A stretch of 20,307 nucleotides of DNA from a virus: the IMG/VR virus record IMGVR_UViG_3300006033_000130, positions 1 through 20,307 of that record, one strand, 5' to 3'. This document shows, in pieces, positions 2,726 through 20,307 of the stretch. Within the stretch, counting starts at the first letter, position 1, and the number at the start of each line of letters is the position of its first letter. The position numbers and the translations under genes are program-made. Below the pieces are notes generated by a model, which was given only the letters and a program-made list of their open reading frames with translations, was not told where the DNA came from and searched no databases.

Positions 2726-4282
2726 ATGATCATTACGCAAACGGAGCTGCAAAGCATGCGACTGGCGAAATCTGGCTCCATGTCCGAAGCAGAAATCCTA
2801 ACCGATCTCATTCGAGAGGATAAACAGAGCCCTTCCTACAAGATGGCCGAGGATGCCGAGCGGTATTACGACGGGCAGCATGATATCCGTAAGCACGACT
2901 TCCGCACGGAATTCATCGCGGAAACGCAGACGAACGACGACGGCGAGGAGATCGAGGTCTCGACTGCATTTACCAATCCAAACCGATCCAACGAGCGCAC
3001 CCCGAATCCATTCTTCTGGATTCATGTCATTCAAAAGGCGCAGTATGTGCTCGGCAAAGAACCGTCCATCAGCGTTGGCGAGGATGCCGCAAGCGGGGAT
3101 GCGTTCAGTGAAGCGCTAAGCCGCACCACCGATGCGGTGTTTATGAACCTACTGACCGAGTGGGCGACCGAGGCGGCCAAGGGCGGCAAGGCGTGGATCA
3201 AAGAGTATCGCGACCGCAACGGCCGCCTGCGGCAGGCGGTGATCTCCCGTAAAAACGGTATCCCCGTGTACGACACCGCGCACGATCAGGAATTGGTCGA
3301 GTTCATCTATCATTATCCCGTTGAGATGCGCATCGGACGCGATAAGCGCGTGACGCGTACATATGCCGAGTGGTGGACGCAGCAGGGTGTCACCTTCTGG
3401 TATGCCGATGGGGATGCGGTGTTTCAGCCTGATCCGGAGCGCGCGGGCGTGCAGCCGCACTTCCGCGCGACAACGTATGTCACCGGCAAGGATGGCGTGA
3501 CGCCGGTGGTAAAATCGAGTGTCGGCAAAACGTGGGAGCGGTTACCGTTCGTCGAGCTTTCCAACAACGAAAGCGGCACGAGCGACCTTGCCCGATACAA
3601 AGACCTCATCGACGCATATGACCTCGTGCAGTCCATGGGCACCAACAACGTGCTCGATTTCAATGAATTCTGGGCGGTGCTGCAGGGATTTGGCGGTGAC
3701 GTTGCCAATTCCGTGGTGCGAAAACTGCACATCAACCGCGCGGTGCATATCGCAGGACAGGGCGGCAATATCGAAATGAAGCAGCTGGATCTGAACATGA
3801 CAGGACGCATCGACTGGCTCAAACTCCTGCGCGACGCGATTCATGAGTTTGGCATGGCGGTAGACATCCGCAACGCCACGTTTGGCACCGCACCTTCCGG
3901 TGTTGCGCTCAAATTTCAATATACCCTGCTCGACCTCAAGGCGAACGCGCTGATTGCGCGGATGCGCATGGCGCTGGAAGATCATTTCTGGTTTATCACA
4001 CAGGAGATCAACAAGCAGGGCAATGTGAAATATGATCCAACAAGCATCGAGGTGACGTTCAATAAGAGTATGATCACCAACGATGTGGAGACCGTGAACA
4101 TGATCATAGCCTCGGCCGATCTGGTTCCGGAGCGCATCCTCATGGCGGCACACCCGCTCGTGGACGATCCCGATAAGGCCATGCAGGAGATGGAGAAACA
4201 GCGCAAAAAAACCGCTGCGGAAGCGCGCAAGAACATGGGCTCCTATGGTATGCCCGCTGAAGATGAGGATAATGCGAAGTGA
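2726..4282 (+). CDS. Portal protein, SPP1 gp6-like
   Basis: This is the dodecameric ring at one head vertex, the channel for DNA and the docking site for terminase and connectors; 518 aa, a usual length for the family. ATG 2726 has GGAGGG at 2715-2720. Features typical of SPP1 gp6-like portals are YYDGQHDI (47-54), a long helical N-terminal half with the FFWIHVIQKAQYVLG stretch (96-110), LPFVELSNNE at about residues 273-282, and the conserved segment after it containing LIDAYDLVQS. The C-terminus is charged and rich in Glu, Lys and Gln, suggesting a flexible tail. The stop overlaps the GTG start of the minor head gene by GTGA, which implies translational coupling. Confidence rests on gene order plus these motifs. 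Confidence 0.93.
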   Translation: MIITQTELQSMRLAKSGSMSEAEILTDLIREDKQSPSYKMAEDAERYYDGQHDIRKHDFRTEFIAETQTNDDGEEIEVSTAFTNPNRSNERTPNPFFWIHVIQKAQYVLGKEPSISVGEDAASGDAFSEALSRTTDAVFMNLLTEWATEAAKGGKAWIKEYRDRNGRLRQAVISRKNGIPVYDTAHDQELVEFIYHYPVEMRIGRDKRVTRTYAEWWTQQGVTFWYADGDAVFQPDPERAGVQPHFRATTYVTGKDGVTPVVKSSVGKTWERLPFVELSNNESGTSDLARYKDLIDAYDLVQSMGTNNVLDFNEFWAVLQGFGGDVANSVVRKLHINRAVHIAGQGGNIEMKQLDLNMTGRIDWLKLLRDAIHEFGMAVDIRNATFGTAPSGVALKFQYTLLDLKANALIARMRMALEDHFWFITQEINKQGNVKYDPTSIEVTFNKSMITNDVETVNMIIASADLVPERILMAAHPLVDDPDKAMQEMEKQRKKTAAEARKNMGSYGMPAEDEDNAK

Positions 4283-5535
4283 GCGATTATTGGGAGAAGC
4301 GTGCGCTCGAGCGAATGCTGCGCATTGAACTGATCGGCGACGACTATGCCGTGCGCATCTTCCGGCTCTACAAAGACGCATTCGACGAATTGAGCGCGGA
4401 GCTTTCCGCGCTCTTTGAACATTATGCCAAGCAAGGTGATTTGTCACCAATAGAAGCGGCGCGGTATCTGCGCGAGCCGCTGCCCCGCGCGCGGGCGGAT
4501 GCCCTTATGAAACTCATTTCTGAGGTCGACGATCCGGATGTGCGGCGAAAGCTGCTCGCCCGCACGAACAGTGCGCAGTACGGCGCTCGGATGAAACGCC
4601 TGCAGGCGATGCAGGAAAACATTCGCGCAGAGTGCGCAAAGGTTGCGGATCGCGAGATCGCAATCCATCAGGAAGCAGAGCGTAAGGTTGGTTCAGAGGC
4701 ATATTACCGCACGGTGTTCGATATGCAACAGGGCACCGGCGCTGCAATCCCGTTTTCACAGATCACCATTGAGGAGATCGACGCGGTGTTGTCCCAGCGT
4801 TGGGCGGGAGAAAATTACTCGGCACGCGTCTGGCAAAACGCGGATGAACTGGCGGAGAAGCTTGGCAAGATCGTTCGCGTCAACGTCGCCACAGGGCGGC
4901 CGTGGGAGCATTGTCTGCGTGAGCTGGAGTCATTCATGGCCTCGCCCGATCAGGGCGGCGTGTACGCCGCGGCGCGGCTGCTGCGTACGGAGACGATGTA
5001 TGTTTACAACGAAATGTCTGCCGAAGCGAGTAGCTCCATGGGCGCGAAACGGTATCGGTTCATCGCGGTGCTGGATTTGAAAACCTCCGGCATCTGCCGC
5101 CTGCACGATGGATTGAAAGACCCGGACACAGGCAAGTTTTACTCGTACGCAACGCGCAAAGCAGGCGTGAACTTCCCGCCGCTGCATCCCTGGTGTCGTT
5201 CCATCGAAGCGCCATTTATCGACAAAAGCACCCTCGCGGAGATCACGCGGCCCGCGAGAAATCCGATCACGGGCGAGATCATTCAGATACCGTCCGCGAT
5301 GACGTATCCGGAGTGGTATAAAAAGTATGTCGTGGGTGATCCGCAGGCGGTGCTAAACGAGCGGACAATCAAAAACACCGCGCCTGACCGCCGCCAGTGG
5401 CAGCGGTATCGCGAGGTGATCGAGGATGTCCCCAAGACGCTTGCGGAATTTCAGCGCATGAAATACACCAATGAAAAATGGTGGGAAGCACTGAAGTTGA
5501 AGTATCGCGATATCCGATCCCTCTATCCTTTCTGA
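4279..5535 (+). CDS. Minor head protein, Mu F / SPP1 gp7-like
   Basis: This is a head morphogenesis protein that binds the portal and is packaged in small copy number; 418 aa. It starts with GTG 4279 in a GTGA overlap with the portal stop; GAGG at 4265-4268 is the ribosome site. The first two thirds are mostly charged helix. The Mu F-like domain covers about 230-312: RTETMYVYNEM, then D266, C273 and H276 in the TSGIC...H stretch, an aromatic FYSYATR strand, and the signature PPLHPWCRS (300-308). The pattern of paired Cys/His in this domain suggests metal binding, a family expectation not proven here. The C-terminal 100 residues are family-variable. Only 89 bases separate its stop from a terminator, beyond which the late operon is interrupted by a reverse-strand gene. 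Confidence 0.92.
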   Translation: MSDYWEKRALERMLRIELIGDDYAVRIFRLYKDAFDELSAELSALFEHYAKQGDLSPIEAARYLREPLPRARADALMKLISEVDDPDVRRKLLARTNSAQYGARMKRLQAMQENIRAECAKVADREIAIHQEAERKVGSEAYYRTVFDMQQGTGAAIPFSQITIEEIDAVLSQRWAGENYSARVWQNADELAEKLGKIVRVNVATGRPWEHCLRELESFMASPDQGGVYAAARLLRTETMYVYNEMSAEASSSMGAKRYRFIAVLDLKTSGICRLHDGLKDPDTGKFYSYATRKAGVNFPPLHPWCRSIEAPFIDKSTLAEITRPARNPITGEIIQIPSAMTYPEWYKKYVVGDPQAVLNERTIKNTAPDRRQWQRYREVIEDVPKTLAEFQRMKYTNEKWWEALKLKYRDIRSLYPF

Positions 5536-5624
5536 TAACCCAGAGAAACACATGAAGATATATCCAGCGGACTAAGAAAGGTATAAGAATGGAATCCCGC
5601 AGACATACTACGAGCAAATAAGAA

Positions 5625-5652
5625 ACCGAGGTGCGAGACACTCGGTATTTTG
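5625..5652. terminator. Bidirectional intrinsic terminator between minor head gene and moron
   Basis: ACCGAG (5625-5630) pairs perfectly with CTCGGT (5641-5646). A bulged G and a further TG/CA pair can extend the stem. On the + strand ATTTTGTGTT follows; on the - strand TTTCTTATTT follows. It can therefore end both the minor-head transcript and the reverse-strand small gene that stops at 5659. Confidence 0.7.
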
Positions 5653-5658
5653 TGTTCC

Positions 5659-5913
5659 TCAATTATCAATTATATGGAGCGGGTTTGCATTGAGCCGTTC
5701 AATTTCTTCCTCGCTAAGTTCGACAACATCGACCTTGTAGATATGCAGTGGTTGTGGAAGTTCCTGCGAAAATCTAGTGTTCGCGATGTTTTCTACATAT
5801 TCATCTAATGGCAAGGAATATGTATGTGGCATGTACATCACCACTGGTTTTGATCCAAAGGGCTCACCGCCACCACCATTTGCAAGCCAGTATTTTAAAT
5901 AGGTCTTTTTCAC
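5659..5913 (-). CDS. Small accessory protein of unknown function (moron candidate)
   Basis: This 84-aa protein is read against the direction of the whole late operon. The start is GTG at 5913-5911, preceded 7 bases upstream by AGGAGG within AGGAGGTGATC, the best ribosome site in the window. The open frame continues upstream to 6057, but that part lacks such a site and overlaps the promoter region. I do not recognise the family. The sequence is soluble and mixed: a basic N-terminus (KKTYLKYW), a Gly-rich turn ANGGGGEPFG (11-20), a hydrophobic strand KPVVMYMP, then an acidic helix-prone tail VELSEEEIERLNA. No signal peptide or membrane segment is seen. The codons are AT-richer than those of its neighbours. 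With its own ribosome site, promoter candidate, operator-like repeat and terminator, it resembles a phage moron: a gene expressed separately, often for lysogenic fitness, superinfection exclusion or defence. Its actual function is unknown. Confidence 0.72.
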   Translation of the reverse strand: MKKTYLKYWLANGGGGEPFGSKPVVMYMPHTYSLPLDEYVENIANTRFSQELPQPLHIYKVDVVELSEEEIERLNANPLHIIDN

Positions 5914-5932
5914 AAGATCACCTCCTGCACTG

Positions 5933-5960
5933 AGTATAGCAGAATGCCGTGAAAACACAA
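5933..5960 (-). promoter_or_regulatory. Candidate sigma-A-type promoter of the reverse-strand small gene
   Basis: On the - strand, TTGTGT (5960-5955) and TATACT (5938-5933) are 16 bases apart. The -10 is one mismatch from consensus and the -35 is weak. Transcription would start just before the AGGAGG site, giving a very short leader. An alternative pair on the same strand is TTGATA with TATTGT, 16 bases apart and slightly upstream. Either way the inverted repeat at 5958-5978 overlaps the promoter. Confidence 0.45.
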
Positions 5961-5978
5961 CAATAAAGTGTATTGTTG
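5958..5978. promoter_or_regulatory. Operator-like perfect inverted repeat CAACAATA-5-TATTGTTG
   Basis: CAACAATA (5958-5965) and TATTGTTG (5971-5978) are exact inverted copies separated by AAGTG. The site overlaps the candidate -35 of the reverse-strand gene and lies upstream of its transcription start, so it is better explained as a protein-binding dyad than as an RNA hairpin. A dimeric helix-turn-helix repressor is the simplest binder; none is encoded in the window. Confidence 0.5.
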
Positions 5979-6006
5979 GCCTATCAACGAAGAATCGTAG
6001 TTCAAT

Positions 6007-6012
6007 TATAAT
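6007..6012 (+). promoter_or_regulatory. Isolated consensus -10 (TATAAT) facing the scaffold gene
   Basis: This is a perfect TATAAT on the + strand in the AT-rich gap. No good -35 lies 16-18 bases upstream and there is no TG extension. TTGGCC is present but 25 bases away. Any transcript would start near 6019 and meet the hairpin at 6048-6070 within about 60 bases. Weak evidence. Confidence 0.2.
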
Positions 6013-6047
6013 CGCAGGCTCATGTACTAGTATATTTTGCAACCTAG

Positions 6048-6077
6048 GGACGCTCATAAAACGAGCGTCCTTTTGTT
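6048..6077 (+). terminator. Intrinsic terminator upstream of the scaffold gene
   Basis: GGACGCTC (6048-6055) and GAGCGTCC (6063-6070) form a perfect 8-bp stem with loop ATAAAAC, followed directly by TTTTGTT. On the other strand no T run follows, so it acts on rightward transcripts only. It lies inside the late operon, about 100 bases before the scaffold start. Confidence 0.75.
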
Positions 6078-6179
6078 ATACCCAAAATCAGCCGACCATG
6101 CAGGCGCTTAAACGCATGGACACCCCGGCGCGGAGTGGCCGCGCGTTTATAAATCAAATCGCGGGTGGAAAGGAACACA
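6078..6179 (+). promoter_or_regulatory. Structured leader of the scaffold-capsid transcript
   Basis: This is a non-coding leader with two hairpins. The first is CCATGC (6096-6101) with GCATGG (6114-6119). The second is GCGCGG (6128-6133), loop AGTGG, and CCGCGC (6139-6144), followed by GTTTATAAAT. The second stem is short and very GC-rich; its T content downstream is weak for a terminator, so a processing, stability or translation-control role is as likely. No convincing promoter is seen on this strand. Confidence 0.35.
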
Positions 6180-6758
6180 ATGCCGGAATATCTCAAAAAG
6201 CTGTTTGGCGAAAAACCGCTGTCCTACGACGAATTCAAGTTAGTCTACGACGCGCAGGAGAGCGCAAAGGACGGAGTGAAGATCGCTAACCTGACAGACG
6301 GCGGCTATGTCAGCCTCCAGAAGTTCAGGGACAAGGAAACGGAGCTCAAGACCGCGACGGACACCCTCAAGGGCCTTCAGGATACCGTCAAAAAGTTTGA
6401 TGGCGTCGATCTGGATGCGCTGAAGAGCGCCGCAACAACCGGACAGAAAAAGTACGATGACGATCTTGCGGTATTCCGCAGGGACAGCGCGGTGAATTTA
6501 CTCCTCGCGCAGTCTGGCGCGCGGAACATCAAGGCGGCGAGCGCGCTGCTTGATCTATCCAAGGTGAAGGTCAAGGAGGACGGCAGCGTGGAGGGCGTGG
6601 ATATCGACGCTCTGAAGAAGTCCGATCCCTATCTCTTCGTCATCGAACAAACCCGGGAGGAAGGCGACGGCCACGCGGGAGCCGCCGACGCCGGAAAGGA
6701 CAAGCCCGCCACGCTCGAGGCCGAGATTCTGAGCGGGCTGTACGGCACCGCAAAATAA
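6180..6758 (+). CDS. Capsid scaffolding protein, phage GP20-like
   Basis: This is an internal scaffold that directs capsid assembly and leaves the prohead; 192 aa. The start is ATG 6180 with GGAAAGGA six bases upstream; the in-frame GTG at 6165 is rejected. The N-terminus MPEYLKKLFGEKPLSYDEF is the hallmark of the GP20 scaffold family. Residues about 45-105 are a coiled coil (KFRDKETELKTATDTLKGLQD onward). A family-typical helical region follows (NLLLAQSGARN, then ALLDLSKVKV), then SDPYLFVIE at 148-156. The C-terminus is acidic and low in complexity. It lies 21 bases upstream of the capsid gene, the usual position. No protease gene is seen near it. Confidence 0.9.
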   Translation: MPEYLKKLFGEKPLSYDEFKLVYDAQESAKDGVKIANLTDGGYVSLQKFRDKETELKTATDTLKGLQDTVKKFDGVDLDALKSAATTGQKKYDDDLAVFRRDSAVNLLLAQSGARNIKAASALLDLSKVKVKEDGSVEGVDIDALKKSDPYLFVIEQTREEGDGHAGAADAGKDKPATLEAEILSGLYGTAK

Positions 6759-20078: not shown

Positions 20079-20307
20079 CTATATGTTGTGTTTTAATGCC
20101 TCTTCTAGTGGGGTTCTGAAAACATCTCTCAGTTTTGGAAGATATGTACAATAGAACTCAATAATGTTTCCCCATTGTTTCTCGTCTATTAAACCACTTG
20201 GAAAATGGATACATATCCTACAAGCTCTCTTTTCAGGCAATTCTTGCCAATCAAGTTGCGATTCAAATTTCGCATCGAGGTTCAACTGCATATCTTTTAA
20301 CACATGA
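20079..20307 (-). CDS. C-terminal end of a probable DUF4268 protein (5' end outside window)
   Basis: The reverse frame is open from 20079 to the right edge. GTG 20303 is the first start-like codon, but the frame is still open upstream to the edge, so it is probably internal. The readable 75 residues include SQLDWQELPEKRACRICIHF and FYCTYLPKLRDVF. This matches my memory of the C-terminal half of DUF4268 (W-x-x-LPxKxAxRI, then a helix pair ending LxxVFxP). DUF4268 proteins are associated with a PD-(D/E)XK nuclease-like fold, and some occur near mobile elements; no catalytic motif is visible in this fragment. The gene is AT-rich and converges on the phage late operon, so it may be an accessory gene or the host flank. 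Confidence 0.55.
   Translation of the reverse strand, partial: HVLKDMQLNLDAKFESQLDWQELPEKRACRICIHFPSGLIDEKQWGNIIEFYCTYLPKLRDVFRTPLEEALKHNI

Follow-up and report, generated by a model that had tools for sequence, protein, structure and literature searches.

A probable moron of a new small protein family between the minor head and scaffold genes of a phage contig

Introduction

Morons are an already known kind of phage gene, and a described gene of identical anatomy to the one studied here is pid of phage P22, an 86-aa ORFan that is encoded on the opposite strand to its late-region neighbors with a canonical Shine-Dalgarno (SD) sequence and a 3′ terminator, and whose product derepresses the dgo operon of the Salmonella host (PMC3573128). 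Three further systems bear on the question of function. The anti-CRISPR genes of Pseudomonas Mu-like phages lie in accessory region G, a low-G+C stretch among the late genes (PMC4378225), the P2/P4 phages have antiviral hotspots, which are small high-turnover loci between two conserved phage genes (PMC9122126), and Tad2 is a sponge-type anti-Thoeris protein (PMC12043709).

The locus described here lies in a stretch of 20,307 nt (IMG/VR record IMGVR_UViG_3300006033_000130, positions 1 to 20,307), referred to below as the window. Like pid, it consists of a small single gene opposite the late operon with an SD and a 3′ terminator, at a site that is empty or differently filled in relatives; unlike pid, which sits between P22 orf25 and orf80, it lies between the minor head and scaffold genes. 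With region G it shares the low G+C content, the high turnover and the placement in the late or structural part of a phage that is probably temperate, but no sequence relation to region G was found, no Aca regulator accompanies it and it is a single reverse-strand gene. Tad2-like (PF11195) proteins, small and soluble as well, occupy the identical genomic site in three other phages, although their genes run on the plus strand and show no sign of a reverse promoter of their own. The P2/P4 hotspots are comparable in being small, high-turnover loci between conserved genes, whereas the site examined here has smaller cargo (~0.2–1.3 kb in the closest relatives), mostly of unknown function, and differs in position and host.

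Results

The insert and its closest relatives

Three viral contigs (L002, L003, and L004) match the window at 85–90% DNA identity to the left and to the right of the insert, and the four phages differ exactly at the insert. The features of the region are as follows.

4279–5535, plus strand: minor head protein gene, left neighbor (Phage_Mu_F-like, phrog_115)
5547–6040, no strand: whole insert relative to the empty site of L004 (~0.5 kb, 41% G+C)
5620–5651, no strand: bidirectional terminator downstream of the moron gene, an imperfect hairpin with T-runs on both strands
5659–5913, minus strand: probable moron gene of 84 aa with GTG start, encoding a small acidic protein of no curated family, with homologs
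5916–5926, minus strand: SD AGGAGGTGATC, an 11-base match
5933–5941, minus strand: extended −10 promoter element TGCTATACT, conserved with homolog L154
5955–5960, minus strand: −35 candidate TTGTGT, weak, 16-bp spacer
5958–5978, no strand: perfect 8-bp inverted repeat CAACAATA-n5-TATTGTTG across the −35 region, a possible operator that the homologs lack
6046–6072, plus strand: intrinsic terminator bordering the insert on the right, found in L002, L003, L004, and L078 as well, regardless of cargo
6087–6179, plus strand: GP20-a RNA (RF02991), leader of the scaffold gene, conserved in the same four
6165–6758, plus strand: capsid scaffolding protein gene, right neighbor (PF06810)

L004 represents the empty site, in which the stop of the minor head gene runs directly into AACCCAGGGACG, followed by the terminator and then GP20-a. 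L002 has a 58-aa plus-strand gene at the insertion point, and L003 has a gene for a 421-aa protein (L003:6277–7542) that is coiled in its N-terminal part and ends in a NUDIX domain, with a domain of unknown type in the middle; this is possibly a prophage-borne defense or nucleotide-pool gene. Cargo size in these closest relatives is ~0.2–1.3 kb.

The terminator and GP20-a (6046–6179) are conserved in L002, L003, L004, and L078 while the cargo before them changes. For the second half of the head operon, GP20-a may control read-through or translation; literature searches on this RNA gave nothing. The arrangement shows how an insert in a late operon can be tolerated at a spot flanked by a conserved terminator and RNA leader.

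The reverse-strand ORF is a gene with its own expression signals

The original prediction described an 84-codon, AT-richer gene on the opposite strand, and the ORF at 5659–5913 is exactly that, with 84 codons, a GTG start and a TGA stop, and with 41.6% G+C against 56.1% for the window and a GC3 of 0.40 against 0.69–0.79 for the genes on either side. It might nevertheless be a chance open frame inside an AT-rich decaying insert, and of 2000 dinucleotide-shuffled versions of the insert 11.5% did contain a start-to-stop ORF of at least 84 codons, so that length alone is weak evidence. When GGAGG or AGGAG before the start was required as well, the figure fell to 0.15% (2000 shuffles), and the ORF together with its SD is therefore good evidence for a gene. 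In addition, the homologous proteins described below are in frame, the differences among their genes are distributed 39/37/59 over the three codon positions with third positions in excess, and the DNA from promoter through SD to start codon is conserved. A lack of homologs with conserved reading frame had been named as what would speak against the gene, and in-frame homologs were found in other phages; for practical purposes these comparisons refute a chance frame, to which we give next to no credence. Two other frames were rejected: an upstream ATG at 6057, giving a 132-aa form, would begin upstream of the promoter and shows no homology, and a 52-aa plus-strand ORF overlying the gene has a TTG start and no SD.

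The SD AGGAGGTGATC occurs once in the window, and even AGGAGGTG has no second occurrence on either strand, in agreement with the earlier view that this is the best ribosome site of the window. As to the promoter candidate that had been proposed, the best hit of a consensus scan (9/12) was no better than chance. The extended −10 element TGCTATACT, located 20 bases upstream of the start codon, is the better candidate, and it is conservation in a homolog, not the consensus scan alone, that shows it. The hairpin at 5620–5651, with its T-runs on both strands, bears out the terminator. The inverted repeat at 5958–5978 could be a repressor operator, but we treat it as a lead only, because it is absent from homolog L154 and because a second inverted repeat of 9 bp and similar quality lies inside the ORF.

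Homologs define a small protein family

The protein (P0001) had no match in Pfam (E up to 1), PHROGs, NCBIfam or PADLOC and none to the Tad2-like PF11195 profile, and tblastn against annotated phages and plasmids returned nothing significant. The statement that no family could be assigned thus holds for all four collections, but the protein is not an orphan. Pattern searches of viral and genome contigs with the protein alone missed its relatives, which were found only by searching chosen genomes. A targeted search identified L154 (33% identity over 80 residues, E 4e-9); its contig is that of L078, which belongs to the window's phage lineage. L154 is encoded on the reverse strand and immediately precedes the terminase, a position that differs from that in the window; between the −10 and the start codon the two loci have CTGCTATACT-n4-GCAGGAGGTGA in common, while the flanks differ. 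With a profile of the window protein and L154, a second homolog, L159/L162, was detected at E 1.5e-10 in a genome on the Christensenellaceae side; its contig, which is also in IMG/VR as a 42-kb virus, is prophage-like with an unrelated head module. The L159 gene is also a reverse-strand gene; it has late-regulator-side genes on one side and HNH/terminase on the other, and a TTGACA-17-CATAAT promoter precedes it. Both clear relatives are thus reverse-strand genes with promoters of their own, inserted directly before packaging genes. A weaker fourth member, L163 (E 1.3e-4), comes from the same GTDB family as the L159/L162 genome and lies outside recognizable phage genes.

The conserved core of the family is an N-terminal Y-x-K-x2-L...GxGG...G, with NPDGGP in the two relatives. 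L154 touches phrog_28565, of unknown function, at only E 0.0025; this phrog gave no match in any of 148 genomes, nor in the 14 controls, and its absence therefore carries no information. No family member was found in 50 other related virus records or among 345 genomes from a different order, the one to which the Oscillospiraceae MAG G004 belongs, and 391 class-level genomes yielded none apart from the one already known. The 84-aa gene represents a new protein family, which appears to move among unrelated phages of a single small group of Christensenellaceae-like bacteria. This defines a new family of small proteins with a recognizable regulatory cassette.

The minor-head/scaffold junction as an accessory-gene site

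The wider lineage was surveyed at 94 non-redundant minor-head/scaffold junctions, with the nearest large plus-strand ORF taken as the left neighbor. The gap had a median of 329 bp and exceeded 200 bp in 62 of the 94. The original prediction had the two genes normally side by side; this is the case in L004, but in the wider lineage small genes often lie between them. SD-led ORFs within the gaps numbered 73 on the plus strand versus 4 on the minus strand, and since the three minus-strand ORFs other than that of the window (L049, L132, and L015) are all doubtful, the window's cargo is the sole convincing reverse-strand one among the 94 junctions. Tad2-like domains of the anti-Thoeris family (domain matches to PF11195, E 1e-22 to 3e-26) were found at three junctions.

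L082:3814–4251, plus strand: Tad2-like
L111:3676–4140, plus strand: Tad2-like
L115:2898–3152, plus strand: Tad2-like

Other cargo included a BRO-N protein (L039), a 222-aa protein with a weak CdiA_C-like C-terminal domain (L138:3586–4251, E 2.7e-5) and a lipoprotein-like gene (L085), while most cargo had no known function. Judged by these comparisons, the junction is an established accessory-gene site in the lineage, at which the window's cassette is unusual in being reverse-strand and self-contained. The junction of this large Firmicutes phage lineage serves as a docking site for accessory genes, sometimes with anti-defense domains, and comparing it across related phages offers a simple route to candidate counter-defense or host-takeover genes.

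Predicted expression of the cassette

A search of all viral contigs for the cassette GCTATACT-n4-GCAGGAGGTG gave six loci, namely one on the contig of L154 itself and five others. Three of these five begin genes for CI/Cro-like regulators (HTH_3/HTH_26); of the remaining two, one begins a gene for a small membrane protein and the other a lipoprotein-like gene. CI/Cro-like regulators are typically made in lysogens, and the presence of the cassette before such genes, small as the numbers are, supports expression of the window gene from a prophage. The window contig, a 20-kb fragment, has no integrase; a tyrosine integrase is present on the contig of L004 and serine recombinases on both homolog contigs (those of L154 and L159), and the window phage and its relatives are therefore probably temperate, as far as gene content indicates. 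Independent expression, probably in the lysogen, had been proposed at the outset and gains indirect support from the regulators behind the cassette and the integrases of related phages.

Discussion

The sequence features by which a moron is recognized were found together at this locus. The gene separates two genes that are direct neighbors in L004, has its own promoter on sequence evidence (the extended −10 conserved with L154, and TTGACA-17-CATAAT in L159), its own terminator (5620–5651) and a composition unlike that of its neighbors, while relatives have other cargo at the site and conserved-frame homologs exist elsewhere. The idea that it is a moron thus gained from each comparison. We consider it likely that the insert is a ~0.5-kb autonomous reverse cassette at a recurrent accessory site, encoding a small soluble acidic protein of a mobile family that is probably expressed in the lysogen and whose likeliest role is in defense conflict. 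The cassette, with its extended −10, strong SD, one 84-aa gene and bidirectional terminator, would have been inserted backwards, behind the minor head gene and ahead of the terminator/GP20-a leader of the scaffold gene. With its own host-sigma-type promoter, it could be transcribed even when the late operon is switched off, which would most likely be in the prophage and shortly after the DNA has entered the cell.

The three clear members are acidic (pI 4.5–5.0) and have no signal sequence and no hydrophobic or transmembrane segment, the highest 19-residue hydropathy being 0.2–0.4. AlphaFold predicted a beta-beta-alpha-beta-alpha fold with moderate confidence from three sequences (pLDDT 78, pTM 0.68), whereas a single-sequence model was poor (pLDDT 69). 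Foldseek searches of PDB and viral structures gave no match at E up to 0.001, and the best VIA-align score, Z 5.4 to NE1680 (2hfq; rmsd 3.1 over 73 residues), was within the range of chance arrangements.

The product would bind a host protein and so act in the cytosol. The partial association of the site with Tad2-like domains and the small acidic character of the protein favor a role in defense conflict, and from location, size and charge we tentatively propose, at somewhat below an even chance, that it binds and inhibits a host factor in such a conflict, as counter-defense for its carrier or for exclusion of competitors. A stricter form, in which it is an anti-CRISPR, anti-Thoeris, anti-CBASS or DNA-mimic protein neutralizing one host immune system early after injection, draws on the same small acidic product, on a site in common with the Tad2-like proteins of three other phages and on the similar placement of the Pseudomonas anti-CRISPR genes; we rate it somewhat improbable, as PADLOC, Pfam and NCBIfam gave no match, most cargo at the site is without known function, and no Aca-type (HTH) regulator lies beside any family member, with none next to the window gene and none recognized among the ORFs listed near L154 and L159. 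In the broadest form, the new small acidic family would spread as an autonomous promoter-gene-terminator cassette and neutralize a known or undescribed immune system, or exclude rivals, in uncultured Christensenellaceae-like bacteria, and the junction would be an anti-defense docking site in this phage lineage, which is possible but doubtful.

A host-regulatory role is a serious rival, because Pid, with like anatomy, proved to regulate an operon of its host. The protein or an antisense transcript would here retune host or phage gene expression and have no part in defense conflict, and weak fold similarity to small RNA-polymerase-binding proteins (RNAP epsilon/YkzG, Z 2.9–3.4; T7 Gp2, Z 3.0) points the same way. 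These values are, however, at noise level, within the background among many unrelated rows, and the tblastn matches in annotated phages, taken up to E 10, did not include P22; a purely regulatory moron seems rather unlikely to us. Superinfection exclusion had also been suggested at the outset, and a membrane or lipoprotein of the Ltp/Imm type would have a typical moron role and a parallel in the lipoprotein-like gene at the L085 junction. The absence of a signal sequence and of any hydrophobic segment in the three members makes this membrane type very unlikely. The preferred reading remains a moron acting in defense conflict.

Elsewhere in the window, a reverse-strand AT-rich ORF of 74 aa follows the lysis genes (20079–20303), and the contig ends soon after it. 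It matches the C-terminal half of DUF4268 (PF14088, E 5.7e-9) and is a candidate for another moron or a prophage-edge gene.
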